A stretch of DNA of 64,000 nt from Leucobacter chromiireducens subsp. chromiireducens (GTDB lineage: Bacteria; Actinomycetota; Actinomycetes; Actinomycetales; Microbacteriaceae), in assembly GCF_016758255.1 (NCBI RefSeq), contig NZ_QYAD01000002.1, positions 434,001 to 498,000 of the forward strand, given 5' to 3'. Position numbers and translations under genes: made by a program. This document shows, piece after piece, positions 49,292-63,153 of the stretch. The notes under the pieces are model-generated. The model did no database searches, was not told the origin of the DNA, and worked only from the letters and a program-made list of their open reading frames with translations. Each line of letters opens with the position of its first letter. Position 1 is the first letter of the stretch.

Positions 49292-50515
49292 TCATCCCAC
49301 ATCGCGGGGAGCGAGTCGGCGCACCACGCAGACCGCAACAAGCGCGGCGCCCGTTGCACCCGCGGCGATGCTGACGACCATCGTGAGCGCGGAGGTGCCG
49401 GCGAGCGCCGACACGACCGGCGCGGCCACCGCCCCCGCGGTAAACGTCGCCATCCCGAGGAGCGCGGACGCGGTGCCAGCGCGCGAGCCGTGTCCACCGA
49501 GCGCCAGCGTGGTCCCGTTGGGGCCGCCCAGCCCGGCCGCCCCTAGGAAGAGGGCGAGGAGCACGATCACCGTGAGGGCGGGTGCCCCTGAGATCGTTGC
49601 GATCGCGAGCGCGAGCGCCGCGAGCGCCCCCGCGACCTGGCCGATCAGATACATGCGTGCGGTGCCGAAACGCTGCACGAAGACTCGGCTGAGCTGCGCG
49701 CCGCCGAGCTGCGCGAGCGCGTTGACGGCGAACACGACGCTGAACAGCTGCGGGGTGAGCCCGAACTGGCCCTGCAGCACGAAGCTCGACATCGACAGGT
49801 ACGAGAAGAATGCCGCGCCCCCGAGGCAGGCGGCGACCATGAGCGCCACGAACAGGGGGTCGCGCAGCACCGCACCCGCGTGGCTCACGGTAGTGCGCAG
49901 CACGCCGCCGGAGTGCCGACCCGTCGTGAGCGTCTCCCGGAGTCCAAACTGTGCGACGAATACGAGCACCACACCCACACCGGCGAGCACGAGGAAGATC
50001 CCGCGCCAGTCCATGAAGCGGGCGAGCTGCCCGCCGATGACCGGCGCGATGATGGGCGTGAGCGACGTGACGAGCGCGAGCAGCGAGAGCATGCGTGAGA
50101 GTTCGACGCCGTGGAAGAGGTCGCGCGCCACCGCCATCGAAATGACGACGCCCGCGGAACCCGCGACCCCCTGCAGGAGCCGTGCGGCGAGCAACACCTC
50201 AATTGAGGGCGCGAACGCGCACACTGCGGACAGTACCGCGAACAGCACCACGCCGACCACGAGCGGCCGCTTCCTGCCGAAGCGGTCGGAGAGCGGGCCG
50301 GCGAGGAGCTGCCCGAGCCCCAGGCCGATCATGCACACCGACATCGTGGCCTGCGCCAGCGCATCGCTCGTGCCGAGGGAGTGGGCAAGCTGGGGGAGCT
50401 GCGGCAGGTAGAGATCCATGGAGAGCGGACCGAATGCCTCGAGCGCCCCGAGTACGAGGGTGATGCGCAGGAGGCTCATGGGGCGCCCCGCCGCGGCGGA
50501 TCCTGCCCCGCTCAT
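49292..50515 (-). CDS. MFS transporter, Bcr/CflA (DHA1) drug-exporter family
   Basis: A 407-residue, 12-helix antiporter. GPLSMDLYLPQLPQLA in helix 1 is the Bcr/CflA signature. Motif A, GPLSDRFGRKRPLVVGVVLF, follows helix 2, and ARLLQGVAGSAGVVISMAVARDL holds motif C-like residues. Members export bicyclomycin, chloramphenicol, sulfonamides or metabolites such as cysteine. ATG at 50515 overlaps the esterase stop as ATGA. In this operon it may export a substrate analogue or toxic product. Last gene of a five-gene coupled unit. Confidence 0.87.
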   Translation of the reverse strand: MSGAGSAAAGRPMSLLRITLVLGALEAFGPLSMDLYLPQLPQLAHSLGTSDALAQATMSVCMIGLGLGQLLAGPLSDRFGRKRPLVVGVVLFAVLSAVCAFAPSIEVLLAARLLQGVAGSAGVVISMAVARDLFHGVELSRMLSLLALVTSLTPIIAPVIGGQLARFMDWRGIFLVLAGVGVVLVFVAQFGLRETLTTGRHSGGVLRTTVSHAGAVLRDPLFVALMVAACLGGAAFFSYLSMSSFVLQGQFGLTPQLFSVVFAVNALAQLGGAQLSRVFVQRFGTARMYLIGQVAGALAALALAIATISGAPALTVIVLLALFLGAAGLGGPNGTTLALGGHGSRAGTASALLGMATFTAGAVAAPVVSALAGTSALTMVVSIAAGATGAALVAVCVVRRLAPRDVG

Positions 50516-51534
50516 CGCGTGAGGATCCGGCGCCACCAGCTCGCGCGCGCAGCGTTCGCGGCGCGTGAGACTTCAGCGTCGGGGGAGAATCCGGTGAAGC
50601 CGTGGTAGGCGCCCGCCCACACGTGGAGCTCAGCCTCGCCGCCGGCCGCCCAGATGCGCGTGGCGTATGCGACGGTTTCGTCACGGAACACCTCCGCAGA
50701 CCCGACCTCCAGAAACGCTGGCGGGAGCCCCGACAGGTCGGCCGCCCGCGCGGGGGCGCGGTACGCGGAGACCTCGGCGGCGCCACGATCGGTTCCGAGC
50801 GCCGCAGTCCACCCGGTGTGGTTGTTGTTTCGATCCCACGCACCGAAGCCGTCGTATTGCCGCGCGGAGACCGTGTCATTGCGGTCGTCGATCATGGGGG
50901 TGTTGACGAGCTGTCCCGCGATCCCCGGCCCGCCGCGATCGCGCGCGAGGAGCGCGACGGCTGCAGTCAACCCGCCGCCGGCTGAGGTGCCAGAAACCAC
51001 GATGCGATCGGGATCGACGCCGAGCTCCGCTGCGTGCTCCGCGAGCCACACGAGCGCCGCGTAGCAGTCCTCGGCCGCGGCTGGCGCGGGATGCTCGGGG
51101 GCGAGCCGATACTCGACCGCGATCCCGATCACGCCGTATTGCTCGGCGAGCTCGATGAGTTCGCCCGTGCCGAAGAAGCGAGTGCCGAGCACATACCCGC
51201 CGCCGTGAATGCCAAGCACCGCGGGGCGCGGGCCGAGCGCGTGCGGCGCGGCCGGGCGCACAATCGTGATCTCGACATCGGGCGCCCCGAGCGGGCCGGG
51301 GATGAGGCGATCCTCGAACGTGACGTCGCGCCCGGCAACCTGCTCGGCCATCGGCTGAATGATCGTGGCGAAGTGGGCCCGGTTTGCGAGGATGGTGTCT
51401 GCGCGGAGCGGAATTCGTTCGACCAGGTCAAGGAAGAACGCGAGCCCGGCTTCGAGCTCGGGGTCGTGGGGGGCGGGAGCCGGTGGTGTCGCCCCTGCGG
51501 GGTCCGGCTCAGCTGCAGACGAGTGCTCGGTCAT
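50512..51534 (-). CDS. alpha/beta hydrolase, HSL-type esterase
   Basis: A 340-residue hormone-sensitive-lipase-family esterase. The oxyanion motif is IHGGGYVLG, the nucleophile elbow VSGTSAGGGLTAAVAL, the Asp in EVGSAEVFRDETV, and the catalytic His in GAYHGFTGF. VEYRLAPEHPAPAAAEDCYA is typical. It hydrolyses small esters. The natural substrate is unknown. ATG at 51534 overlaps the stop of its paralogue by 4 nt (ATGA), and its own stop overlaps the exporter's start. About 40% similar by eye to the neighbour, so an old duplication. Confidence 0.9.
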   Translation of the reverse strand: MTEHSSAAEPDPAGATPPAPAPHDPELEAGLAFFLDLVERIPLRADTILANRAHFATIIQPMAEQVAGRDVTFEDRLIPGPLGAPDVEITIVRPAAPHALGPRPAVLGIHGGGYVLGTRFFGTGELIELAEQYGVIGIAVEYRLAPEHPAPAAAEDCYAALVWLAEHAAELGVDPDRIVVSGTSAGGGLTAAVALLARDRGGPGIAGQLVNTPMIDDRNDTVSARQYDGFGAWDRNNNHTGWTAALGTDRGAAEVSAYRAPARAADLSGLPPAFLEVGSAEVFRDETVAYATRIWAAGGEAELHVWAGAYHGFTGFSPDAEVSRAANAARASWWRRILTR

Positions 51535-52607
51535 GATGCCTCCGCTCGGCCAAGGATGCGGCGCAGCCACGAGTCCCGGCTCGCGAGCGCCGCGCGCGTG
51601 ATCTCAGCCTCCGGCGCGTACACGTCGAAGCCGTGGCAGCCGCCCGACCAGACGTGCAGCTCTGCGTCGCCGCCCGTCTCCCAGATGCGTCGCGTGTAGC
51701 TCACGTCCTCGTCGCGGAACATCTCGGCGGCCCCCACCTCGACGAACGCGGGCGGGAGCCCTGAGAGGTCATCCGCGCGGGCAGGGGCGGCGTACGCCGG
51801 TGCAGTCTCGGAAAACGCGAGCGCGTCGCCCAGCACGCACTGCCACGCGAGCAGATTGGCGTCGCGCTGCCAGGTGCCGATGCCGTCGTACTGCATGCTC
51901 GACACACTCGTGTTCATGTTGTCGAGCATGGGGCACAGGAGGAGCTGCCCAGCAATCGCGGGGCCGCCACGATCCCTCGCCATGAGCGAGACTGCCGCTG
52001 CGAAGCCGCCACCTGCGCTCCCGCCCATCACGATGAGCCGGGCAGCGTCGCCGCCGAGTTCGGCCGCGTGCGCGGAGACCCAGCTCGTCGCCGCGTAGTT
52101 GTCCTCGACCCCCGCGGGGAAGGGGTCCTCGGGGGCAAGGCGATACTCGACGTTCACCGCAATGACGCCGTGCCGCGCAACGAGGTCTGCCACGCGCTCG
52201 TGCTCCCAGGAACGGTGCCCCACGATCATTCCGCCGCCGTGGAAGTTCACGAGGAGTGGCAGCGCGGCGCGGTTGGCCCCGGCCTCGGCCCCGTTCTCGT
52301 CCTCGCGCGGCGAGAACACCGTGAGCTCGATCTCGGGGGCGCCGGTGGGCCCGGGGATGCGCAGCTCGCGCACGGCGATGCCATGGGCTTTCGCGACGGA
52401 GGCGCCGTCGGGAAACGCTGGCCCGGTGCCGCGGAGCGAAGCGAGCGATTCGCGGGTGAGGGGCGGGGCACCGCTCGTGGCGAGGGCCTCAAGCGCGGGG
52501 ACGACTTCGGGGTCGAACGGTACCGGTGGGATGCTCGGGGATCCGTGGGCGAAGGGACCCGCGGTGCTCGAGCTCCGTGCCTCGCACGGTGTCTGCTGCT
52601 GGGTCAT
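51531..52607 (-). CDS. alpha/beta hydrolase, HSL-type esterase (paralogue)
   Basis: A 358-residue HSL-family esterase with oxyanion motif NFHGGGMIVG, nucleophile VMGGSAGGGFAAAVSL, Asp region EVGAAEMFRDEDVS and His in GGCHGFDVYAPE. It aligns with the next gene over the whole catalytic domain (VEYRLAPEDPFPAGVEDNYA) but has a distinct Pro/Ser-rich N-terminus. ATG at 52607 gives a well-placed AAGGG site. GTG at 52613 would overlap the upstream stop as GTGA and is also plausible. Both esterases in one operon suggest a substrate with two ester or lactone steps, or different chain preferences. Confidence 0.89.
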   Translation of the reverse strand: MTQQQTPCEARSSSTAGPFAHGSPSIPPVPFDPEVVPALEALATSGAPPLTRESLASLRGTGPAFPDGASVAKAHGIAVRELRIPGPTGAPEIELTVFSPREDENGAEAGANRAALPLLVNFHGGGMIVGHRSWEHERVADLVARHGVIAVNVEYRLAPEDPFPAGVEDNYAATSWVSAHAAELGGDAARLIVMGGSAGGGFAAAVSLMARDRGGPAIAGQLLLCPMLDNMNTSVSSMQYDGIGTWQRDANLLAWQCVLGDALAFSETAPAYAAPARADDLSGLPPAFVEVGAAEMFRDEDVSYTRRIWETGGDAELHVWSGGCHGFDVYAPEAEITRAALASRDSWLRRILGRAEAS

Positions 52608-52609
52608 GT

Positions 52610-53575
52610 TCACGGCCCTTCGGGGTCGACGAGGCCGCGGTCGGCCCAGAATGGTTCCACGCTCGCCCGGATGTCCGCGGCGCCGACGCGCTCGAGCAGT
52701 TCGAGGCTGCCGAGGTTTGCCTCGAGTTGCGCAACGCTCGAGGCCCCGAACAGTGTGGTGGCGGTGGCGGGGTGAGTGAGTGTGAACGCGATGGCGAGCT
52801 GGGCGGGGGTCGCGCCGAGCTGTTCCGCGAGCGCGACGAAACCGGGAACGTCGTCGATGATGCGCTGTCGGATTCCGCCGGGATCGCGCCCCACTTCGCG
52901 CTCGGTCGACACCTTCCCTGCGAGGTAGCCGCCCTCCATCACGTCGGAGGCCTGCATCGAGAGCCCACGTGCGAATACGCGCCCGAACGGCTCGCCGTCC
53001 GGGATCGAACGTCGCGACACGCTGTATTTCAGCTGCGCGATCTCAGGGCCTGGGACGCCCTCGGCATCGGCAATGTCGAGCAGCGCGGTTACGTTCGACG
53101 CCGACCAGTTGTTCACACCCCAGGCGCGGATGAGCCCGTCGGCGGTGAGTTCTGCGAGGTTCAGCACGATGTCTCGGAGCGCGAGGTCGTCGCGGCGGAG
53201 GTCCCCGAGAATGACGAGATCGGCGTGCTCGGCACCCACGCGGAAGAGCGCCCCGTCGAGCTGGCTGCGGAAGCCGGTCTGCTCATCCCAGCCCTCGACC
53301 CAGAGCTTCTCTGAGAGGAGGTAGTCGTCGCGTGCCACTCCGGCGGCGCGGGTGATGGCCGAGAAGAGCACATCAGTGAACGCGGGCGGGCCGCCGGGGG
53401 CGGCGTAGACGCCGACATCGAACAGAGTGATGCCGTGGTCGATCGCCGTGCGAACGAGCTGCACGGCATCCTCGAAGTGCATACGGTCATAGATATGCCA
53501 CGATCCGAGCGCGAAGACTGAGGTCTCGAGCGCGCTCGTGCCGATCCGGCGGTGGGGAACCAGCGGGTGCGTCAT
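52610..53575 (-). CDS. aldo-keto reductase family protein lacking the catalytic His
   Basis: A 321-residue AKR barrel. TLFDVGVYAA supplies the Asp and Tyr of the catalytic tetrad, and YLLSEKLWVEG the Lys. Where the family has a strand ending in His (as in LLHWP), this protein has DLVILGDLRRDD. The cofactor end QLAIAFTLTHPATATTLFGA and NLGSLELL is normal. It is clearly paralogous to the AKR at 57237 (shared VFALGSW and DRM near the N-terminus). NADPH-dependent carbonyl reduction is the family role, but altered chemistry is possible. ATG at 53575 follows AAAGGA. Confidence 0.85.
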   Translation of the reverse strand: MTHPLVPHRRIGTSALETSVFALGSWHIYDRMHFEDAVQLVRTAIDHGITLFDVGVYAAPGGPPAFTDVLFSAITRAAGVARDDYLLSEKLWVEGWDEQTGFRSQLDGALFRVGAEHADLVILGDLRRDDLALRDIVLNLAELTADGLIRAWGVNNWSASNVTALLDIADAEGVPGPEIAQLKYSVSRRSIPDGEPFGRVFARGLSMQASDVMEGGYLAGKVSTEREVGRDPGGIRQRIIDDVPGFVALAEQLGATPAQLAIAFTLTHPATATTLFGASSVAQLEANLGSLELLERVGAADIRASVEPFWADRGLVDPEGP

Positions 53576-53613
53576 TGCGTGTCCTTTCATGAACTGGGGG
53601 CGCGAGGGGCGGG

Positions 53614-54732
53614 CTAGGCGCGGCGGGGGAGGCGCGGGTCGATGACCGCCTTGACCTCGCGCAACTCGTGCATGTTGGCGATGCGGTCGGATGCGTCATC
53701 GAGGCCGCACGGCTCAGAGAACAGCTCGTCCCACGGGAATCGGTCGGCGAAGATGCGGAAGAACTCGATCGAGCGGTAGTAGTCGGAGACATCACCGTTC
53801 AGCGAGCCGACGACGGTGAGCTCCTTGCCCATGATCGCCGAGAGGGGAAACGCGTCACCCGTGGGACCCGTGGACCCGACGATGGCAATCGTGCCGCGCT
53901 GCGCGGCCATCCCGACCGCCTCGGGGCCGATGCTTGGCGCTCCCGCGAAGTCGAGCACGAGGTCGGCTCCCTGGCCATTCGTGAGCTCGTGCACGCGCGC
54001 GACCGTGGCCTCCGAACCGCCCGCAATGTCGACCGTGTGGCTCGCGCCGAAGCGCTGCGCGAGCTCGAGTCGGGCAGCGGGGGCGCCGGCGGTGATGACG
54101 GTGCCGGCGCCGGAGATGCTCGCGACCGCGGTGGCAAACAGGCCGAGTGCGCCGGATCCCTGCACCACGACGCGAGATCCGGGCCGCACGCCTCCCGCGC
54201 GATCGAACGCACGGAGAACGGTCTTCGCCGCGCAGCCTGCGGCGGCGGCCCACGTGTCCTTCACCTCGGCGGGAAGCCGGAGCTTCTGGGCGCCCGGGGT
54301 GACGTAGGCGTACTCGGAGAGTCCCGCGGTGGCGTAGGGCGGCACGTCGGTGCGCTGCATGAAGCCGTAGCCGCGCTTCGCGCACGCCACGGGCTCACGG
54401 AGCACCGTGCAGCCAAAACACTCGCCGCAGACCGATTCAGACCAGCCGATGCGATCGCCTACCCCGAGTGGGGCGCCGAGTGCGTCAACGGTGCCCTCGC
54501 CGACGGCGACGATCTCGCCCACCATTTCGTGGCCGAGCATCATGGGCAGCATGCCGGGGAAGCTCATCTTGCCCGCCCAGATCTCGATGTCGGTGCCGCA
54601 GAGCGTGGTGCAGGTGATCCGCACGAGCGCGGCGCCCGGCTCGATCTCCCGGGGAAGGGGAAGGTCCTGCAGTTCGAGCGGGGCTCCATGCGTGGTCAGC
54701 ACCGCAGCACGGGTGGACGTGGGAATCGTCAT
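53614..54732 (-). CDS. zinc-dependent alcohol dehydrogenase (MDR family)
   Basis: A 372-residue medium-chain dehydrogenase. The catalytic zinc site is TLCGTDIEIW and LGHEMVGEIVAVG. The structural-zinc loop contains CGECFGC and a further Cys in EPVACAKRGYG. The NAD(P) fold begins VVVQGSGALGLFATAVAS. It oxidises an alcohol or polyol. The substrate is unknown. ATG at 54732 follows GGAG. First gene of the operon ADH, AKR, two esterases and exporter, all closely spaced or overlapping. Divergent from the amidohydrolase at 54868. Confidence 0.9.
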   Translation of the reverse strand: MTIPTSTRAAVLTTHGAPLELQDLPLPREIEPGAALVRITCTTLCGTDIEIWAGKMSFPGMLPMMLGHEMVGEIVAVGEGTVDALGAPLGVGDRIGWSESVCGECFGCTVLREPVACAKRGYGFMQRTDVPPYATAGLSEYAYVTPGAQKLRLPAEVKDTWAAAAGCAAKTVLRAFDRAGGVRPGSRVVVQGSGALGLFATAVASISGAGTVITAGAPAARLELAQRFGASHTVDIAGGSEATVARVHELTNGQGADLVLDFAGAPSIGPEAVGMAAQRGTIAIVGSTGPTGDAFPLSAIMGKELTVVGSLNGDVSDYYRSIEFFRIFADRFPWDELFSEPCGLDDASDRIANMHELREVKAVIDPRLPRRA

Positions 54733-54797
54733 TGAGGTCTCCAATCCGGGATTCGGCGCGGCCTCGTTGCCTGAGGCGCCGATCGTGTAGGTTTTAT

Positions 54798-54811
54798 TCT
54801 ACACACGTTGA
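54798..54811. promoter_or_regulatory. TCTA-N6-TAGA-like site between ADH and amidohydrolase
   Basis: TCTA-CACACG-TTGA, 7 of 8 arm positions. It overlaps a second palindrome, GTGTAG-N8-CTACAC (54786-54805), whose arms are perfect. It lies in the 135-bp divergent gap. Confidence 0.5.
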
Positions 54812-54867
54812 CCATAAGCGCGAGGGCTGTCTTGACCCCGCCGGTCCGTCCCAACGAAGGGGGAACG

Positions 54868-56301
54868 ATGTTGAATCCTGCGCTGCGCCCACCGCGCGAC
54901 ACTGCTGAGCTCGTGCTGCGCGGTGGGGTGGTCCATGTCATGGACGCCGACGCGCGATGCGAAACGGCGGTGGCGATTGTGGGCGACCGCATCGCCGCGG
55001 TGGGCAGTGATGCCGAGATCTCGACGTGGATCGGACCGCACACTCGCGTGGTTGAGCTTGGGGGCCGCGCAGTGCTCCCGGGAATCAATGACTCGCACCT
55101 ACACGGCTCCTGGCTGGGTGCGCGGTGGCCGCACACTCTGTTTGGGGATCCGGGCGCCGCGGCCGATGCGGAGGGTGATGCGCTCGCTGCCCCGGCGGCC
55201 GGCCCACTCGTGCGCACTCGCGCGGAGCGCCGCGCCGCCATTCTCCGGGCGGGCGAACTGCTCTCGGAGCTCGGGGTGACGAGCTACACCGAGCCCGGCA
55301 TCGGTCCGGGGGAGGACGCGGGGGAGACCGGCAGCTTCCACACAGAGGTGATCGACATCTATCGTGAGCTCGCGGCGGCAGGCGAGTTGCGCCAACGCGT
55401 CACGCTCCTCGCGCTCCACGGGGTGCTCGATGGGCCGAGCGAGGTGGCTACGGTGTGCGCGGGGATTGCGCGGCACGGCGAGCTTGCGGGCGAGAGCGAC
55501 CCCGAGTGGTTCGCGGTTCCCGGCGTCAAGATTTTCGGCGACCTCATTCCGCTCACCCGTCAGGCCTGGACGACGCACAGCTACGACGACGGGACCCACG
55601 GAGACCTCTTGGTGGTGGGCGAGGGAATCGACGCGAAGGCTGCGGGGCTCGGCGAGATGCTCCAGGCGGCGCACCGCGCGGGCCTGCAGGTCGGCCTCCA
55701 TGCCACCGGCGATCGCGCGATCGAGCTTGCGCTCGATGCGTTCGAGGCTGCGGCAGCGGAGTCGGGGGCGCCGAGCGTGCGCGAGCTCGGACATGTCATC
55801 ATTCACGGTGACCTGGTCTCGGCGGAGCAGGTGGCGCGAATGTCCCGGCTCGGTGTATGGCTGAACACGCAGGCGGGCATCGCTGCGCGCACGGGGGAGT
55901 GGCTCGCTGGTGCGCTCGGCGCGGAGGTGGCGAATTTGGCCTGGCCGCTCGAGGTGGCACGTCGCGCTGGGGTGCTGGTGCTCTCCTCAGATGCTCCCGT
56001 GCTGGACTTTGATTGGCGGCGCGGAATCGCCGACGCGGAGGCGCGGGTGCTCGCGACGGGCGGCTCGGCTGATGCGGCGGCGAAGCACGAACGTCTTGCG
56101 GGGTGGCTGCGCTGCTACACCTCCATTCCCGCGGCGCAGGATCGCGCGGCGCAGTGGAAGGGCGCGCTGGAGGCGGGAATGGTCGCTGACCTTGTGGTGC
56201 TCGAGCGTGATCCCTTCGTGGTTGGCGCGGAGGGCTTGCCCGGTGTGGCAGTGGATGCCACGGTGCTCGCCGGGCGCGTGGTGTTCGAGCGCGGTGCCTA
56301 G
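54868..56301 (+). CDS. YtcJ-type metal-dependent amidohydrolase
   Basis: A 477-residue amidohydrolase-superfamily protein of the YtcJ-like group. ELVLRGGVVHVMDADA is the small beta domain. Metal ligands appear in LPGINDSHLHGSW (HxH), a His in QVGLHATGDRAIE, VIIHGDLVS, and the Asp in VLVLSSDAPVLDFD. The end returns to the beta domain (GMVADLVVLERDPF). Members hydrolyse amide, formamide, carbamate or lactone-like bonds. The substrate is unknown. ATG at 54868 follows GAAGGGGG. Divergent from the ADH operon with a shared regulatory site. Confidence 0.87.
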   Translation: MLNPALRPPRDTAELVLRGGVVHVMDADARCETAVAIVGDRIAAVGSDAEISTWIGPHTRVVELGGRAVLPGINDSHLHGSWLGARWPHTLFGDPGAAADAEGDALAAPAAGPLVRTRAERRAAILRAGELLSELGVTSYTEPGIGPGEDAGETGSFHTEVIDIYRELAAAGELRQRVTLLALHGVLDGPSEVATVCAGIARHGELAGESDPEWFAVPGVKIFGDLIPLTRQAWTTHSYDDGTHGDLLVVGEGIDAKAAGLGEMLQAAHRAGLQVGLHATGDRAIELALDAFEAAAAESGAPSVRELGHVIIHGDLVSAEQVARMSRLGVWLNTQAGIAARTGEWLAGALGAEVANLAWPLEVARRAGVLVLSSDAPVLDFDWRRGIADAEARVLATGGSADAAAKHERLAGWLRCYTSIPAAQDRAAQWKGALEAGMVADLVVLERDPFVVGAEGLPGVAVDATVLAGRVVFERGA

Positions 56302-56304
56302 CTT

Positions 56305-56345
56305 GCGTGCGGCCCGGACCGGCGAGCCGGTCTCGGGCCGCACGC
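56305..56345. terminator. bidirectional terminator between amidohydrolase and SDR
   Basis: GCGTGCGGCCCG pairs with CGGGCCGCACGC. Inside, ACCGGC pairs with GCCGGT, giving a long stem with small internal mismatches, 3 nt after the amidohydrolase stop. Confidence 0.8.
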
Positions 56346-56359
56346 ATTGCTTCGGGGCC

Positions 56360-57103
56360 TTAGGTGAGCAGCTGCCCGCCATCGACGGGCAGGCTCACCC
56401 CGGTGATGTGGGCGGCCTTTTCGCTGGCGAGATAGCTCACCGCATCGGCGACCTGCTCAACGCGTGCAAGGTCGCCGAGCGGGATCCGGCTGGCCCATGC
56501 GGCGCGCGCGGGTGAGCCCTCGGGCATACCTTGCTCGAGCATGGGAGTGAGCACGGGGCCCGGGGCCACGGCGTTGACGCGAATGCCGTGGCCGGCAAGC
56601 TCGATCGCGGCCCAGCGGGTGAGGGAGTCGACGGCCGCCTTGCTGGACTCGTAGGCCCCCATTCCCGGCGTGGGTTGGCGGCCGCCGATTGATGAGATGT
56701 TCACAATGCTGCCACCGCCACCCAGCGCGATGCGGTGGCGGGCGAAGGCCTGGGTCATCGCAAACGTGCCGAGCACATTGACCTCCAGGATGGAGCGGTA
56801 CGCCTCGGGCGCGAGGTCGGTGACGGCGCCGTGGACGGACAGGATGCCGGCGTTGTTCACGAGCGTGTCGACACCTCCGCGCTCGGCGAGCGAAGCGAAG
56901 CCTGCCTCGATTGCGGTCGGGTCGGTGATGTCGAGCGAGATGGCGCGCGCAGTGCCGCCGAGCTCTGCGGCCGCCACCTGGGCCGCATCAATGTCGCGAT
57001 CGGCAAGGATGGCGTGATCGCCGTGAGCGGTGACCGCTCGGGCGATTGCCTGGCCGATTCCGCCGGCGCCGCCGGTAATGAGAACGGTGCGTGCTGTAGT
57101 CAT
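56360..57103 (-). CDS. short-chain dehydrogenase/reductase
   Basis: A 247-residue classical SDR. Cofactor motif TGGAGGIGQAIA (residues 10-21), Asp after the second strand (LADRDIDAA, favouring NAD), NNAG, catalytic Ser in VNISSIGG, YESSK with Tyr and Lys, and the PG motif NAVAPGPVLTPM. It interconverts a hydroxyl and ketone on an unknown substrate. It is divergent from the AKR at 57237 and convergent with the amidohydrolase. Confidence 0.9.
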   Translation of the reverse strand: MTTARTVLITGGAGGIGQAIARAVTAHGDHAILADRDIDAAQVAAAELGGTARAISLDITDPTAIEAGFASLAERGGVDTLVNNAGILSVHGAVTDLAPEAYRSILEVNVLGTFAMTQAFARHRIALGGGGSIVNISSIGGRQPTPGMGAYESSKAAVDSLTRWAAIELAGHGIRVNAVAPGPVLTPMLEQGMPEGSPARAAWASRIPLGDLARVEQVADAVSYLASEKAAHITGVSLPVDGGQLLT

Positions 57104-57164
57104 GTGCAGACTCCTGTGTCTTGTGGTCAGCCCAGGCCAGGGCTGGAGGGAACGCGCCTTATAT

Positions 57165-57178
57165 TATACGATTGTAGA
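57165..57178. promoter_or_regulatory. TCTA-N6-TAGA-like site between SDR and AKR
   Basis: TATA-CGATTG-TAGA, 7 of 8 arm positions. The right half continues GTAGAAAATAAAC (57174-57186), identical to 59107-59119. Confidence 0.5.
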
Positions 57179-57236
57179 AAATAAACGAGCGAACCGCGAG
57201 GTGTACCCGCGGTGGCGCGGCTGCGAGGAGGCAGAT

Positions 57237-58241
57237 ATGACATTCACTGGCACGGTTCCGCGGCGAGCGCTGGGCCCGAACGGCCCCGAGGTGCCGGTCT
57301 TTGCGCTCGGATCCTGGAACATCTGGGATCGCATGGCTGCCCCAGCTCGTCGTGCGCTCGTGACGAGGGCGGTGGAGGTTGGGGCCGCGTTCTTCGACGT
57401 GGCGTACTACAACATGGGACCTCATGCCGAGGCTTCGCGCACGGATCTCCTCTTCGGCGAGACCCTGCGTGAGCTGGCGCTCGACCGTTCGGCGTATCAG
57501 CTCTGCGGAAAACTGTGGCTCTGGGAGTATCCCGTGACGGGGTTTGCGGAGCAGATGGATGTTTCGCTGGAGCGGATTGGGGCGGGGCGCGGGGGTCCCG
57601 AGTCGTTCGACACCGTGGTGGTGGGGGACTTTTTCGGTGATATCGATATCGCGCAGGTGGTTCGCGACGTGCACGCTGAGATCCTCCGCGGCAGCTTTGC
57701 GAGTTGGGGGGTTAACAACTGGCCAGCAGGTGCGCTGCAGCTCGCCCTCGACACGGCCGCTGCAGAGGGGCTCACGCCGCCGAGCTTCGCGCAGCTCAAG
57801 TATGGCCTCGTGCGCCGCAGTATGGCGGAGGGAGGGTGCTACGGCGGCTGGTTTGCGGATGGCACGCTCGCGCTGCAGGCCTCTGACGCCTTCGAGGGGG
57901 GAATCCTGGTTGGCAAGTTGGCGCCCGCACGAAAGATCGGTGCGGATGTCGGCGAGATTCGAGACCGAATTGTGGCGATCTACCCTGAGGTGGAGCGCAT
58001 CTCGACGGCGCTTGGGGCGACCCCCGCGCAGCTGGGTCTCGCGTTCTGTCTTGCGAACCCGGCAACCGCGAACGTGCTGTTTGGTGCCTCGCGTGTCTCT
58101 CAGCTGGAGGATAATCTCGGGGCGATTGCGCTCTTGGAGCGCGAAGGGGCCGCGCGGCTCCGTGAGCTCACGGCCGAGCTCTGGCTGGATCGCGAGGTAC
58201 GCGCCGATGGTGTGTGGGCGCCGGCCGGCGCTGGCGACTAG
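57237..58241 (+). CDS. aldo-keto reductase family protein lacking the catalytic His (paralogue)
   Basis: A 334-residue AKR paralogous to the one at 52610. VFALGSWNIWDRM matches VFALGSWHIYDRM there. The tetrad Asp and Tyr are in FFDVAYYNMG and the Lys in YQLCGKLWLWEY. The His-bearing strand is replaced by DTVVVGDFFGD, again ending Gly-Asp. ASWGVNNWPAGALQLALD and ANVLFGASRVSQLEDNL are normal cofactor-side segments. ATG at 57237 follows GAGGAGG. Substrate unknown. Followed by a bidirectional hairpin. Confidence 0.85.
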   Translation: MTFTGTVPRRALGPNGPEVPVFALGSWNIWDRMAAPARRALVTRAVEVGAAFFDVAYYNMGPHAEASRTDLLFGETLRELALDRSAYQLCGKLWLWEYPVTGFAEQMDVSLERIGAGRGGPESFDTVVVGDFFGDIDIAQVVRDVHAEILRGSFASWGVNNWPAGALQLALDTAAAEGLTPPSFAQLKYGLVRRSMAEGGCYGGWFADGTLALQASDAFEGGILVGKLAPARKIGADVGEIRDRIVAIYPEVERISTALGATPAQLGLAFCLANPATANVLFGASRVSQLEDNLGAIALLEREGAARLRELTAELWLDREVRADGVWAPAGAGD

Positions 58242-58256
58242 TCTCTGGGTGACGCC

Positions 58257-58290
58257 GTGTGGCCCCGTGGTGAGTGCCGCGGGGCCACAC
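58257..58290. terminator. bidirectional terminator between AKR and alpha/beta hydrolase
   Basis: GTGTGGCCCCG (58257-58267) pairs with CGGGGCCACAC (58280-58290) around a 12-nt loop, 16 nt after the AKR stop and 13 nt beyond the stop of the convergent hydrolase. Confidence 0.8.
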
Positions 58291-58302
58291 GCGATCGCAC
58301 GC

Positions 58303-59034
58303 TTAGCTCGCGAGGAACTCGACCGCGGCCGAGCGGAACTCGGGGCTGTCAAGCGCGCCTCGATGGTCGCCGGGTACGGTGGTGAAAGATCCCGCCGCGA
58401 GCTCCGCGAGAAGTGCGTCACTCCCCGCGGTCATCGGGTCGTCTCCGCCCGTGACGAGCAGGGTGGGGATCCGCGGCGCCGCTGCCGCGGGAGTGAACGG
58501 TTCTGTCGCGAGGCCGGGAATGAGGCGAGCGAGCGAAGCGGTGTCGCGGCCCGGGGCCGAGATCATTCCGGCCATCATTCCCACCAGCGGGTTCGCGGGA
58601 GTCTCGCCGCCGAGCGCTGCAGCGAGCTCTGCGGCATCCACCGCGGCGAAGGGTTCGCTGGGGCTGACCCCACCGAGTACGAGCCGGCGAATCTGTGGGG
58701 TGCGGGCCGGTAGGTCCCACGCAAGCCTCCCGCCGAGCGAATAGCCGAGAACGTCGATCGTGCCGGCACCCGCCGCTGCGGAGAGCGCGGTGCTCAGTGC
58801 GTCGAGCACCGCCCCTGTGGTCGCCGCAGAGGGGGCCGAGATGGCGGGGCTCTCACCGTGACCGGGGAGGTCGATCGCTACGACTGAGCGGCCGGCCGCG
58901 TGTAGTGCGGCGACCCAGCCGGTCGCGAGAAAGTCGTCCTCTGATGAGGAGGCAAAGCCGTGGAGCAGGGCCACGGGTGGCACGGCTGCGGGGGCAGCGT
59001 GGTCGAGCGGAAAGTGGTGTACGGCAAGCGTCAT
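58303..59034 (-). CDS. alpha/beta hydrolase
   Basis: A 243-residue alpha/beta hydrolase. Oxyanion region ALLHGFASSSEDD, DLPGHGES, nucleophile elbow VLGYSLGGRLAWDL, acid in VTGGDDPMT, and His in VPGDHRGALDSPEF. The size and the DLPGHG loop resemble MenH/BioH-like hydrolases and meta-cleavage-product or ester hydrolases. The substrate cannot be told. It is divergent from the methyltransferase, with two copies of the recurring palindrome between them. Confidence 0.85.
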   Translation of the reverse strand: MTLAVHHFPLDHAAPAAVPPVALLHGFASSSEDDFLATGWVAALHAAGRSVVAIDLPGHGESPAISAPSAATTGAVLDALSTALSAAAGAGTIDVLGYSLGGRLAWDLPARTPQIRRLVLGGVSPSEPFAAVDAAELAAALGGETPANPLVGMMAGMISAPGRDTASLARLIPGLATEPFTPAAAAPRIPTLLVTGGDDPMTAGSDALLAELAAGSFTTVPGDHRGALDSPEFRSAAVEFLAS

Positions 59035-59097
59035 TGCGGAACCTTTCGTGGGCGAAGCCTGGGGACGGAGTGCGGAGGTACCGCGTCATCGCGTTTT

Positions 59098-59111
59098 TCT
59101 ATGCTAGTAGA
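59098..59111. promoter_or_regulatory. TCTA-N6-TAGA site A between hydrolase and methyltransferase
   Basis: TCTA-TGCTAG-TAGA, all 8 arm positions. It extends to TTTTCTA-N6-TAGAAAA (59095-59114). Confidence 0.6.
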
Positions 59112-59143
59112 AAATAAACCCGACGTGCACTGGACTTTGTGTG

Positions 59144-59157
59144 TCTACGTTCGTAGA
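59144..59157. promoter_or_regulatory. TCTA-N6-TAGA site B between hydrolase and methyltransferase
   Basis: TCTA-CGTTCG-TAGA, all 8 arm positions. It extends to GTCTACG-TT-CGTAGAC (59143-59158). Sites A and B are 46 nt apart centre to centre. Confidence 0.65.
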
Positions 59158-59227
59158 CTTTCGGCAGCAAGACTCGGACACCGCCGTCCCGTGCACGCGG
59201 GCGGCCACGACAGTGAAGGACCCCGTC

Positions 59228-60202
59228 ATGACCGCTACTCCCACCCGCATCGTCGATATCGCGATCGGCTTCATGGGCGCGAAGCAGCTCGCTGCCGCGA
59301 CCCGTATCGGCCTGTTTCGCGCACTCGCGGACGGACCCCAGGATCTCGCGGGGCTCGCTTCCGCTACGCAGCACTCGGAGCGCCAGGTGCGCACGCTCGC
59401 TCACGCGATGAACGGCCTTGGGCTCCTCGATCGTGCCGCCGGGCGCTACAGCCTTGCTGAAGACGCGAAACAGTATCTCGCCGGCGGCGGTGAGATCGAT
59501 CTGTCTCCCTTCGTCGCGTTTCTGAACGACATCAGCTACCCGCAGTGGCTCGGCTACGATCGCACCGTCGACACCGACGCTGCGGGCACGCTGGAGCTCG
59601 ACGAGGCGGGCTGGGGCGACTTCATGGCGGGCGTAATGACGTACAACGCCCTGCACGCTGAGCAGTTCGGCGCCGCGTTTGACTTCACGAGTTTCCGAAA
59701 CGCGCTCGACTTCGGCGGGCTTGCCGCAGGCTTCTCGTTCGCCGCCATGGCGCAGAACCCGGAACTCACCACCCGCTTCGTGTACGCGCCGGGCTTCACC
59801 GAGTCGATCGCGGCTGAGGCCGAGCGTGCGGGCTACACGTCGCGCGTGACGGTTGAAGAGGGGGAGACGGAGAGCACCGAGCCCGGCGGGGAGCATGATC
59901 TCGTGCTGCTCACCCACGTGCTTCACCGCTTCGATGCGACGCAGAATCAGGCCATCCTTGCCGCCGCGCGAGGCGCTGCAGTCGCCGGTGCGAAGCTGAT
60001 GCTCCTGGACTTCTTCCTCGACGAAGACGCGACGCAGCGCAGCATCGATGCGCTACACGCGGGAGAGTACTTCAACATCGATGGCACGGTTGTGTACCCC
60101 ATCGCCGAGGTTGAGGGCTGGCTTGCCGAGACCGGCTGGGCCGTCGAGCGACTCGTGTCGCTCCCCGGGAGCCCGCGCGTGCTCGTCGCGACCGCGGTCT
60201 AG
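59228..60202 (+). CDS. SAM-dependent methyltransferase-like protein (dimerisation plus Methyltransf_2 layout)
   Basis: A 324-residue protein with the layout of small-molecule O-methyltransferases. The N-terminal winged-helix dimerisation domain (IGFMGAKQLAAATRIGLFRA, then SATQHSERQVRTLAHAMNGL) precedes a Rossmann domain. The SAM loop reads LDFGGLAAGFSFAAMAQNP instead of the usual DxGGGxG, so cofactor binding may be weakened or altered. LVLLTHVLHRFDATQNQAIL and LMLLDFFLDE match the post-motif strands of the family. ATG at 59228 follows AAGGA. The next gene starts 9 nt after its stop, forming an operon with the phosphotriesterase pair. Confidence 0.8.
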   Translation: MTATPTRIVDIAIGFMGAKQLAAATRIGLFRALADGPQDLAGLASATQHSERQVRTLAHAMNGLGLLDRAAGRYSLAEDAKQYLAGGGEIDLSPFVAFLNDISYPQWLGYDRTVDTDAAGTLELDEAGWGDFMAGVMTYNALHAEQFGAAFDFTSFRNALDFGGLAAGFSFAAMAQNPELTTRFVYAPGFTESIAAEAERAGYTSRVTVEEGETESTEPGGEHDLVLLTHVLHRFDATQNQAILAAARGAAVAGAKLMLLDFFLDEDATQRSIDALHAGEYFNIDGTVVYPIAEVEGWLAETGWAVERLVSLPGSPRVLVATAV

Positions 60203-60211
60203 GGGCGCGCC

Positions 60212-61252
60212 ATGGGGAGTGATCCCGCCGCGGAGGCGCAGCGCGCGCGACTCATTCGCACGCTCGAGGGTCCGATCGACGCCGCATCGATCGGACCCGC
60301 GCTCGCGGCCGAGGTGCTCCTTCACGTCCCGGCGCCCCGCCACGGCAACACCGGCACGCCCGCAAGCGATGCCGCATTCGACCGCGCGCCCGTCACCATG
60401 CACCGCCTCGGCGCACTGCAGCTCGGCGCGATGAACCGCGACGACGAGACGCTGGGTGAGGCGGAAGCGGGGGAGGCGCTCCGGCGCTGGGTGCGCGCGC
60501 TGGCTGATCCCAACGGGGCAGTGATACCGGGAACGCCCCTGGTGGTTGCGCTGGCACCAGAGGTAGGCCGCGAAGCTCGGGTGCCCGGCGCGCTCGGCCG
60601 GTTGGGTGGTGAGAGCGGCGTTGCGATCGTCCGCGGCGCCTCGCCCACGGATCCCGATCTCTCGGACGCGGGCCTCGTGGGGGCGGTGTCGGCCGAGAGC
60701 CCGGCGCTGCTCGAACAAGCGGCGGCACGGGCCGCCGCCGCGGACCTGCCGCTCGCGCTCGCACCAGTGGGCGGGCTGCCGGAACTCAGGCGCGTCCTGG
60801 CGCGGGTCGCCGGCGCCGGGCTTTTCGGCTCGCGTGTGCTGATTACGGGCGTCGCCGGACTCATTGCAGCGGTGCATGCGCCCGGTGTGCCCGGTGTGGG
60901 CGCCGATCCCGATCTGCTTGACCAGCTCATCGAGTTGCTTGGCGAGCATGGTGCCGGGGCGGTATTCGACGACCTTGGCCGTGTGCCCAGCGTGGCGACG
61001 GTGGTCTCGGATCACGACGTCGCGTGCGCCATACTTCGCGCTGCTGAGCAGGGGGTGGGGCACCTCCTCATGGTGAGCGCCGGGGTACGCGCCAAACATC
61101 GCCTGAGCCAGTTCGGCGGGGGCGGGCTTGAATTCGTGCACACCCAGTTTCTGCCCTACCTCGGCGTGTTGGGCGCCTCGCCCGAACTGCTCCATGGGGT
61201 TGGCGGCGCACACCTCGCGCGCTTCTTGCGTGTTGACCGAGAGGACCACTGA
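60212..61252 (+). CDS. degenerate phosphotriesterase-family protein (predicted pseudoenzyme)
   Basis: A 346-residue protein. By eye it aligns with the phosphotriesterase-family protein encoded next: IGPALAAEVLLHVPAPRH against LGPTLMHEHVFLDIRRPAH, and FVHTQFLPYLGVLGASPELL against IVDHFLPTLAEFGVSERAL. Every metal ligand of the partner is replaced: HEH becomes AEV, Glu of VIGEAG becomes Ala in LVGAVS, His of LHMGG becomes Ala (LAPVGG), His of FGHAG becomes Val (ITGVAG), and Asp of LGGDV becomes Ala (VSAGV). The frame is intact, so a structural or regulatory partner is more likely than decay. Its stop overlaps the partner's start (TGATG). Confidence 0.75.
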   Translation: MGSDPAAEAQRARLIRTLEGPIDAASIGPALAAEVLLHVPAPRHGNTGTPASDAAFDRAPVTMHRLGALQLGAMNRDDETLGEAEAGEALRRWVRALADPNGAVIPGTPLVVALAPEVGREARVPGALGRLGGESGVAIVRGASPTDPDLSDAGLVGAVSAESPALLEQAAARAAAADLPLALAPVGGLPELRRVLARVAGAGLFGSRVLITGVAGLIAAVHAPGVPGVGADPDLLDQLIELLGEHGAGAVFDDLGRVPSVATVVSDHDVACAILRAAEQGVGHLLMVSAGVRAKHRLSQFGGGGLEFVHTQFLPYLGVLGASPELLHGVGGAHLARFLRVDREDH

Positions 61253-62355
61253 TGTTTCCGCGGCGCATGGCGACCCCACTTGAAGACTTCGCGATCCCGG
61301 ATCGACGGGGTCTCGTGCAGACGGTGCTTGGGGAGGTGCAGCCAGATGCTCTGGGGCCCACGCTCATGCACGAGCACGTGTTCCTCGACATCCGGCGGCC
61401 CGCGCACTCGCAGAACCCTCGCCCGGGTGAGTGGGCGGAAGCCGCGCAGCAGCCGCTGACGCTCGACAATCTGGCAGCCGTGCGGCGCGGGCAAGTGAAC
61501 TCCGACAACGACGTGCTCGGCGACTTCGAGATGATGCGCGAGGAGGTCTCGGTGTTTGCAACGCAGGGCGGTGGCACGCTCGTTGAGGTCACCCCCGCCG
61601 GTGTGGGGCGCGACCCGCGTGCGCTCGCTCGGCTCAGCCGCGCGACGGGCCTGCACGTGGTGATGGGGTCTGGGTGGTACCAGCAAGATCTCCACCCGCG
61701 AGGCTTCGCCGAGCGCTCGGACGATGAGCTCGTTGCGGAGCTCGTTGCTGACATCGTGGGTGGCGCGAGTGGCTCGGGCGTCCGAGCCGGGGTGATTGGC
61801 GAGGCGGGCGCCGAGGGTGCCCCCGTGCCGCCCGCGGAGATGCGTAGCGTCCGTGCGGCGGGGCGCGCCGCTGCGCTCACCGGCGCGCCCATCACGCTGC
61901 ACATGGGCGGGTTTGGTGAGGAGAAACTCCGGGTGCTCGACGCGCTCGAGGACGCGGGCGCGGATCCGAGTGGGGTGGTCTTCGGCCACGCGGGCACGAT
62001 CGCCGATGACATGTCGCTCGCGCGCCGGCTCCTCGCGCGTGGGGTGACAGTCGAGGCGGACTTCTTGGGCACGACGGGGAGCCCCTGGGGCACGCTCTTC
62101 CCGTTCACCGACCGCGGGGTCGCCCGCGGGTTCGCGGAGCTCGTTGCCGATGGTTGGGGCGCGCAGCTCGTGCTCGGGGGCGACGTGTGTCAGAGTGTGC
62201 AGTTGCGGCGGTACGGGGGCCACGGCTACGGCTACATTGTCGACCACTTCCTCCCGACCCTCGCGGAGTTCGGGGTGTCTGAACGCGCGCTCCAGCACAT
62301 CATGGTTGACAATCCGGCCCGGGTGCTCGCGTTCCGCGCGCCGCGAGGCGCGTAG
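61252..62355 (+). CDS. phosphotriesterase-family metal-dependent hydrolase (PHP/PTER-like)
   Basis: A 367-residue amidohydrolase-superfamily enzyme. Ligands seen: HxH in LMHEHVFLD, a Glu in AGVIGEAGAEG (family members like E. coli PHP use Glu where bacterial phosphotriesterase has carboxylated Lys), His in ITLHMGG, His in VVFGHAGTIADD, and Asp in LVLGGDVCQS. These proteins hydrolyse lactones or esters more often than phosphotriesters. The natural substrate is unknown. ATG overlaps the degenerate paralogue's stop by 1 nt, so the two are made together. It converges directly with the TetR gene, with no gap. Confidence 0.88.
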   Translation: MFPRRMATPLEDFAIPDRRGLVQTVLGEVQPDALGPTLMHEHVFLDIRRPAHSQNPRPGEWAEAAQQPLTLDNLAAVRRGQVNSDNDVLGDFEMMREEVSVFATQGGGTLVEVTPAGVGRDPRALARLSRATGLHVVMGSGWYQQDLHPRGFAERSDDELVAELVADIVGGASGSGVRAGVIGEAGAEGAPVPPAEMRSVRAAGRAAALTGAPITLHMGGFGEEKLRVLDALEDAGADPSGVVFGHAGTIADDMSLARRLLARGVTVEADFLGTTGSPWGTLFPFTDRGVARGFAELVADGWGAQLVLGGDVCQSVQLRRYGGHGYGYIVDHFLPTLAEFGVSERALQHIMVDNPARVLAFRAPRGA

Positions 62356-62952
62356 CTACGGCGTGCGCCGCAGCCGCGCGATGAACTCGGTCACCTGCGC
62401 GTTAAGGGACTCCGCGCTCAGGCGATCGGGGCTCACCACGCGAATGACGGTCGCCCCAATGTTCATCATGACGATCTCATCGGCGAGCTGCGCGTCGGAG
62501 AGCGGGGAGTGGATGTCGCCATCGGCGCGTCCCTCGGCAAGGTAGCGCAGGCACCCCTCGCGCCAGCTGTCGAGGTGGGCGTCGTAGCCGCCAGCGAGCT
62601 CCGTGCTGAACGCGCAGCGCTCCCAGAACGAGAGCAGCACGCGCGCGGCGGTCGCATCCTCTTGTTCGACGGGCAGTGTGTACCGCATGAACATCTCGAG
62701 CGCCGCGATTCCGCGTGCGTCGCCCACGTGGGCGACGAGTCGTTCGCCAAGGCTCGTGAGGGAGCGCTCGTAGGCGCCCTGGATGATTTGGTCTTTGCCG
62801 GTGAAATAGTGCTTGAGTGCACCGTTCGCGAATCCCGCGCGGCCAGCGATCTCGCGCATCGTTGCGGCCTCGATGCCGCCCTCCACGATCAACTGCCAGG
62901 TCACGTCGACAATCTCTGCGCGGCGCTGATCGTGATCGATGATTTTGGGCAT
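62356..62952 (-). CDS. TetR-family transcriptional regulator
   Basis: A 198-residue regulator. The HTH is MREIAGRAGFANGALKHYFT (about residues 32-51), followed by GKDQIIQGAYERSL, similar to BetI-type TetR proteins. The ligand domain has VLLSFWERCAFS. It is divergent from the GMC oxidoreductase, and a partial copy of the recurring TCTA-N6-TAGA palindrome lies 28 nt before its start, which fits autoregulation. I infer that it may be the local regulator of the 49-64 kb island. Confidence 0.87.
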   Translation of the reverse strand: MPKIIDHDQRRAEIVDVTWQLIVEGGIEAATMREIAGRAGFANGALKHYFTGKDQIIQGAYERSLTSLGERLVAHVGDARGIAALEMFMRYTLPVEQEDATAARVLLSFWERCAFSTELAGGYDAHLDSWREGCLRYLAEGRADGDIHSPLSDAQLADEIVMMNIGATVIRVVSPDRLSAESLNAQVTEFIARLRRTP

Positions 62953-62979
62953 GCCCTGTCCTCTCGCCGGCGTTGGTTA

Positions 62980-62993
62980 TCCTCCATTGTAGA
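62980..62993. promoter_or_regulatory. partial TCTA-N6-TAGA site between TetR and GMC oxidoreductase
   Basis: TCCT-CCATTG-TAGA. The right arm is complete and the left arm matches 2 of 4. The surrounding ATTGTAGA also occurs at 57171. Confidence 0.35.
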
Positions 62994-63153
62994 CGGAAAA
63001 ATCCCAGATCACCTGAGTGCGGCGGCTTGTCGCAAACCGCAGAGGTCTTGACTGAGCGGGCACGCCTCTCCGCCCGCCCTCGTGCACGGCGCAACCGCGT
63101 GCCAGCCTCAGAAAGGAAACGCGTGCGATGGTGCCGCGTCGGAGAGGATTCCT

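Follow-up and report, generated by a model that had tools for sequence, protein, structure and literature searches.

Two adjacent, overlapping genes of Leucobacter chromiireducens subsp. chromiireducens, here called A and B, encode paralogous proteins of the phosphotriesterase (PTE) family, of which B keeps all six metal ligands and A keeps none. A is probably a catalytically dead paralogue that is maintained as a partner subunit of B, with which we infer that it forms a complex. The pair lies near the end of the window, by which we mean the whole stretch of 64,000 nucleotides analysed, and is laid out as follows.

60212..61252, + strand: gene A, putative PTE-family pseudoenzyme, 346 aa; the six ligand columns hold A33, V35, A158, A184, G213 and G291 (numbers taken from, or adjacent to, the columns of the orthologue alignment)
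60959..61174, + strand: most conserved segment of A, residues 250-321, strand 7 to loop 8
61250..61254, + strand: TGATG overlap; stop TGA of A at 61250-61252, start ATG of B at 61252-61254, one base in common
61252..62355, + strand: gene B, PTE-family metallohydrolase, 367 aa; ligands H40, H42, E184, H217, H246 and D311

Loss of the metal site and retention of the fold

B matches the PTE family PF02126 at 8e-55 (Pfam) and has the HxH, K/E, H, H and D residues of that family; its nearest solved relatives by sequence are 3k2g and PTER (9efa). All six ligands are retained in 26 of 26 readable B genes. A and B align over most of both proteins, as an earlier note made from the sequence alone had stated, with 28% identity at E = 2e-13 (BLASTP). 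As a single query, A of the window gave no match in Pfam (E <= 1) or in NCBIfam (E <= 0.1), and profiles of its orthologues were therefore used. Eighteen of 24 A proteins match PF02126 at E <= 0.01, the A of the window not being among them, and a profile built from the 24 A proteins, with no B sequence included, matches 3k2g at 8e-42.

In an alignment of 26 A and 26 B proteins, none of the six ligands is present in the A of the window, where the columns are occupied by A, V, A, A, G and G. The earlier note had listed A, V, A, A, V and A; that all six ligands are gone was borne out, whereas the last two places have to be read as G or V, then G. Opposite H246 there is V in the pairwise alignment of A with B and G in the alignment of 26 A and 26 B proteins, and opposite D311 there is Gly in both, the alanine given before being the adjoining residue. 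The glutamate, the third and fourth histidines (H3 and H4) and the aspartate are lost in all 26 readable A genes of the orthologue alignment, which excludes chance as the reason for their absence. The first histidine of the HxH motif is kept in 3/26 A proteins and the second in 6/26, all of them outside Leucobacter; HxH is intact in three of the four Microterricola A proteins and the second histidine is present in all six non-Leucobacter ones. D or E stands in place of H3 in 7/26, and D in place of H4 in all four Microterricola A proteins. These counts leave out the A gene of genome G207, which is split over two contig ends and was not joined, and the B gene of G218, which is interrupted.

An AlphaFold2 model of the A of the window reached a pLDDT of 92.6 and a pTM of 0.91, with an input alignment of 26 A and 14 B proteins, of which the B sequences may favour a PTE-family fold; a Microterricola A protein was modelled with equal confidence (pLDDT 92.7). 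The best match of the window model in the PDB is 3k2g (E = 3.6e-20, TM 0.75), and PTER (9efb) and other members of the family are matched as well. A is thus confidently predicted to be a TIM barrel of the PTE family, the fold on which the pseudoenzyme reading of the earlier note depended. By homology and predicted TIM-barrel fold A belongs to PF02126, and the binuclear metal site of the family is missing from it. Taken with the selection described below, A would fit the description of a pseudoenzyme, that is, a predicted enzyme fold without the catalytic residues that is maintained by selection.

Overlap and distribution of the pair

The intact frame of A and the TGATG overlap with B had both been remarked on before and are confirmed here: one base is shared in the window, and the orthologues are open through their length. 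A GAGAGG motif that resembles a ribosome-binding site lies within A, 7 bases 5' of the B start, and a second in-frame ATG occurs 15 bases past that start. A start codon of B that overlaps the end of A was found in 24/24 Leucobacter and Microterricola pairs and in both pairs from elsewhere (Arthrobacter and G804), these counts concerning a possible start codon of B, from which the start used in the cell may differ. The overlap is exactly four bases in 22/26 pairs and 1, 7, 8 and 10 bases in G000, G201, G214 and G222, respectively; the coordinates of G207 are consistent with an overlap as well.

A search of the window's own genome with A matched only A and B. A is present in 21 of 54 Leucobacter genomes, and the same 21 have an orthologue of B, the 20 others being 72-85% identical to the B of the window. 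Among the remaining 33 Leucobacter genomes, 10 have only distant family members (<=41% identity) and 23 have no match. A and B also occur together in four of five Microterricola genomes, in Arthrobacter luteolus and in one genome of another family (G804). The two-gene order, for which a search in other actinobacteria had been suggested, is therefore common to four lineages, in support of a functional pair. A directly precedes B in all pairs found, so that the constant linkage and co-occurrence expected of a dead/active paralogue pair were both observed. No orthologue of B was found without A among the 54 Leucobacter genomes, nor was any B without A found in the other 395 genomes of the order at E <= 1e-70 (up to five candidates scored per genome).

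Of 199 genomes sampled from the family, three gave a match (that of the window and two of Microterricola; up to 10 candidates scored per genome). A search of 394 genomes of the class gave 32 with a match, and two neighbouring matches were seen only in the genome of the window and in G804 (up to five candidates each). No further pair was found in the order (396 genomes) or the phylum (396 genomes), where up to five candidates were scored per genome, or in the genus (5 genomes) and family (22 genomes) of G804; wherever candidates were capped in this way, pairs may be missed. Ten stretches read from other genomes of the order and class contain single B-like genes only. A scan of genome contigs with the A of the window alone gave nothing, and one with the alignment of A gave 14 loci, 12 of them in Leucobacter; these 12 and the Microterricola locus were already in the genome sets and are counted once. 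Plasmid relatives occur in 164 records and, among the 20 matches listed, are 30-33% identical to the A of Arthrobacter; viral contigs gave no matches.

Gene neighbourhood

The pair forms part of a cluster, further members of which are listed here by position in the window.

53614..54744, - strand: ADH, zinc-type alcohol dehydrogenase
54808..56301, + strand: AMH, PF07969 amidohydrolase
56360..57103, - strand: SDR, short-chain dehydrogenase
57030..58241, + strand: AKR, aldo/keto reductase, open reading frame as listed
58303..59034, - strand: HYD, alpha/beta hydrolase
59228..60202, + strand: MT, O-methyltransferase-like with a dimerisation domain, adjoining A upstream in Leucobacter and Microterricola
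62356..62952, - strand: TetR-family regulator, convergent to B, adjoining the pair in Leucobacter and Microterricola

Leucobacter and Microterricola share, with variations, the gene order amidohydrolase, SDR, AKR, alpha/beta hydrolase, methyltransferase, A, B and TetR; gaps in it fall where the fetched stretch or the contig ends, and SDR and AKR are seemingly swapped in G222. The cluster is rearranged in Arthrobacter, where AKR stands before the pair and the hydrolase and methyltransferase follow it on the other strand. Contig C36 of G804 carries the pair without any of the pathway genes in the 16 kb read, and the neighbours there (six open reading frames scanned) are CopC, CopD, sortase, OsmC/hydrolase and beta-lactamase-like genes. 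Relatives of MT, HYD, AKR, SDR, TetR, the ABC transporter genes and the esterases, the last in several copies, are on contig C1 of that genome (L154 and L155), and its three MT-like matches are all on contigs other than that of the pair. The TetR regulator was not found around the pair in the stretch from Arthrobacter or in that from G804. A and B thus remain joined despite the shuffling in Arthrobacter and the separation from the cluster in G804.

Selection and divergence

The earlier note had argued against simple decay and had named neutral evolution or random frameshifts among the orthologues as what would refute its reading. A simple counting method gave dN/dS values of 0.16-0.43 for A and 0.07-0.25 for B across all 13 species pairs, which were chosen pairs, several of them sharing a species; synonymous sites approach saturation in the most distant ones. 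The A orthologues are therefore under purifying selection, and their frames are open through their length, so that the argument against decay stands. A has a higher dN/dS than B in 12/13 pairs and a lower one in G129/G199. In a tree of 20/26 A, 21/26 B and 11 single relatives, with an arbitrary root and a long branch for the A of G804, the A proteins and the B proteins each group in a clade of their own (100/99 for both).

Constraint is distributed unevenly along A. Among 20 Leucobacter A proteins, mean pairwise identity over residues 250-321 is 0.71, compared with 0.39-0.55 elsewhere, and B is likewise most conserved in this segment (0.91 versus 0.60-0.84 elsewhere, 20 Leucobacter B proteins). 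A is thus maintained, and its final third, like that of B, carries most of the constraint. Between strands 3 and 4, Leucobacter A proteins have a stretch of 4 to 59 residues, with 10 in the window. This stretch (60635-60670 in the window, with its match in L042-L061) seems to be Ala-, Gly-, Ser- and Asp-rich.

Divergence was also compared between genes by means of protein distances in 19 Leucobacter genomes. The correlation of A is r = 0.73 with MT and r = 0.58 with B, the partial correlation of A and B given MT being 0.24. In these 19 genomes the distance matrices do not mark B out as the partner of A, and co-divergence does not point to B. A reciprocal loss of the loop-8 lysine between A and B, looked for by eye in the alignments, was dropped, since G804 has the lysine in both proteins.

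A as a probable partner subunit of B and alternative readings

The linkage of A and B across different genomic contexts, their overlapping frames and the purifying selection on A are best explained together if A is a partner subunit of B. Translational coupling at the overlap would yield the two proteins in matched amounts. Relatives in the PTE family form homodimers, and A may have replaced one protomer of an ancestrally homomeric assembly, its conserved strand 7-loop 8 face contacting B and either stabilising it or completing its substrate pocket. The states of the lineages suggest that the glutamate, H3, H4 and the aspartate would have been lost before these lineages split, and the whole of HxH later, in Leucobacter. 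The interpretation of the earlier note is thus supported in part; A may bind B, or be obligate or regulatory for it, as that note proposed.

Several findings weigh against this pairing or moderate it. The distances of A track those of MT better than those of B. Conservation peaks at strand 7-loop 8 in B too, so that the conservation of this segment in A is partly a trait of the family and no proof of an interface. The faster evolution of A in 12 of 13 pairs and the variable length of its middle indicate that part of A is under weak constraint. In G218 (L046, 6857-7995), B is broken across two overlapping reading frames and the upstream A is intact, by a real loss or a sequencing error; an intact A with an interrupted B is unexpected for an obligate pair, unless the interruption is a sequencing error. 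The stronger proposal, that A and B form an obligate heteromer in which the strand 7-loop 8 face of the dead subunit serves the active site of B, that B alone is inactive or unstable, and that the present lineages are successive stages from an active protomer to a subunit free of a metal site, is tentative and rather doubtful, the more so because B conserves that segment most strongly as well.

If A were instead a new enzyme or ligand-binding protein, a repurposed barrel with a metal-free site near strands 7 and 8, the purifying selection on it would be equally expected, and candidate polar columns for such a site can be named (R257, T263, S266, H268, R293, K295, H296, N304 and Q312, with N304 being G in the A of the window), which hardly vary among Leucobacter A proteins and are for the most part unlike the residues conserved in B. 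However, some of these residues (K, GGNG, SD) are also present in the aligned parts of 3k2g and need not be new, the mid-barrel of A varies freely in length, and an independent enzyme would have no need to remain beside B in all the genomic settings observed; we regard this reading as unlikely. Somewhat less likely again is that A partners another protein of the pathway, such as the upstream methyltransferase, or senses a ligand for TetR, its adjacency to B being a matter of operon history. The correlation of A with MT is the highest of those tested and MT lies directly 5' of A in Leucobacter and Microterricola, but in Arthrobacter and G804 it is B and not MT that A adjoins, and the MT-like genes of G804 are on other contigs.

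The remaining two readings concern the state of A itself. The HxH motif of three of the four Microterricola A proteins, the second histidine of all non-Leucobacter A proteins and the acidic residues at H3 and H4, which are possible metal-binding replacements, would fit an A that still binds metal and is a weak or altered hydrolase in some lineages, the Leucobacter A having become a pseudoenzyme later; yet the glutamate and the final aspartate are replaced by non-ligand residues in 26/26 A proteins, and we consider this very improbable. A decaying duplicate that has stayed in frame by chance would likewise account for the fast evolution of A, its variable low-complexity stretches and the progressive loss of ligands. 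Against this, no Leucobacter or Microterricola A match contains an internal stop, 24 A genes were read whole at 33-55% identity to the A of the window in addition to those of Arthrobacter and G804, dN/dS is below 0.45 in all 13 pairs, and A has near-invariant columns. A decayed gene is scarcely credible on these grounds, the dN/dS values, open frames and conserved columns contradicting it as a general explanation.

Relation to known systems

Dihydroorotase and PTE belong to a common superfamily, and to our knowledge the genes of the trypanosomatid dead/active pairs considered below do not form an overlapping operon pair. In the Pseudomonas aspartate transcarbamoylase (ATCase), an inactive dihydroorotase chain (pDHO) is needed for ATCase activity (PMC7053772). 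That system resembles the one proposed here in that a dead amidohydrolase-type chain is assembled with an active partner (PMC7053772); it differs in that its active partner is of another family, whereas the putative partner of A is its active paralogue, to which it would bind. In trypanosomatids, a dead paralogue activates its active counterpart both in AdoMetDC/prozyme (PMC5201418) and in deoxyhypusine synthase (PMC3663545). As with A and B, a dead paralogue is paired there with an active counterpart; unlike A and B, these enzymes are eukaryotic and of unrelated folds, and activation has been demonstrated for them, while A-B is known from sequence.

The closest structural relatives are in the PTER/3k2g branch of PF02126, which B resembles by sequence and A by fold and which provides the best solved matches of both. 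PTER keeps its metal ligands, in contrast to A, which is without a metal site and tied to an active paralogue. The mouse PTER is an N-acetyltaurine hydrolase (PMC11374699), and a dead partner is not mentioned in the available part of that report (PMC11374699). No active/dead pair of the PTE family was found in the open-licence literature, among the matches listed, and the words phosphotriesterase, amidohydrolase and dihydroorotase are absent from the main text of a review on pseudoenzymes (PMC10211241). Dead/active paralogue pairs are thus already known in other families, and A-B appears from its sequences to be such a pair in the PTE family.

Were the obligate heteromer true, it would be the first in the PTE family. 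Enzyme evolution is often studied in this family. The natural lineages show stages of ligand loss (HxH kept, first histidine lost, both lost) beside a constant active partner, and such staged lineages would allow tests of the passage from a homomeric enzyme to a heteromer with one dead subunit, and of whether that subunit comes to be indispensable. Members of the family that are seemingly inactive when expressed alone may also need a partner.

The surrounding pathway

The conserved cluster probably encodes an uncharacterised catabolic pathway. B alone would carry out the chemistry of the pair, hydrolysing an amide, lactone or ester as a step of that pathway; by analogy with PTER, an amide or related bond is a fair guess for the substrate.

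Two minor observations concern the genes of the cluster. Many orthologues of AKR align only from about residue 60-76, and the true start of AKR is probably later than that of the listed reading frame. The cluster, at about 50500-63000 of the window, has two tandem esterase-like genes in addition to the genes listed above, the comparison of these esterases having covered the Arthrobacter and G804 stretches; its aldo/keto reductases and its dehydrogenases number two each in total.
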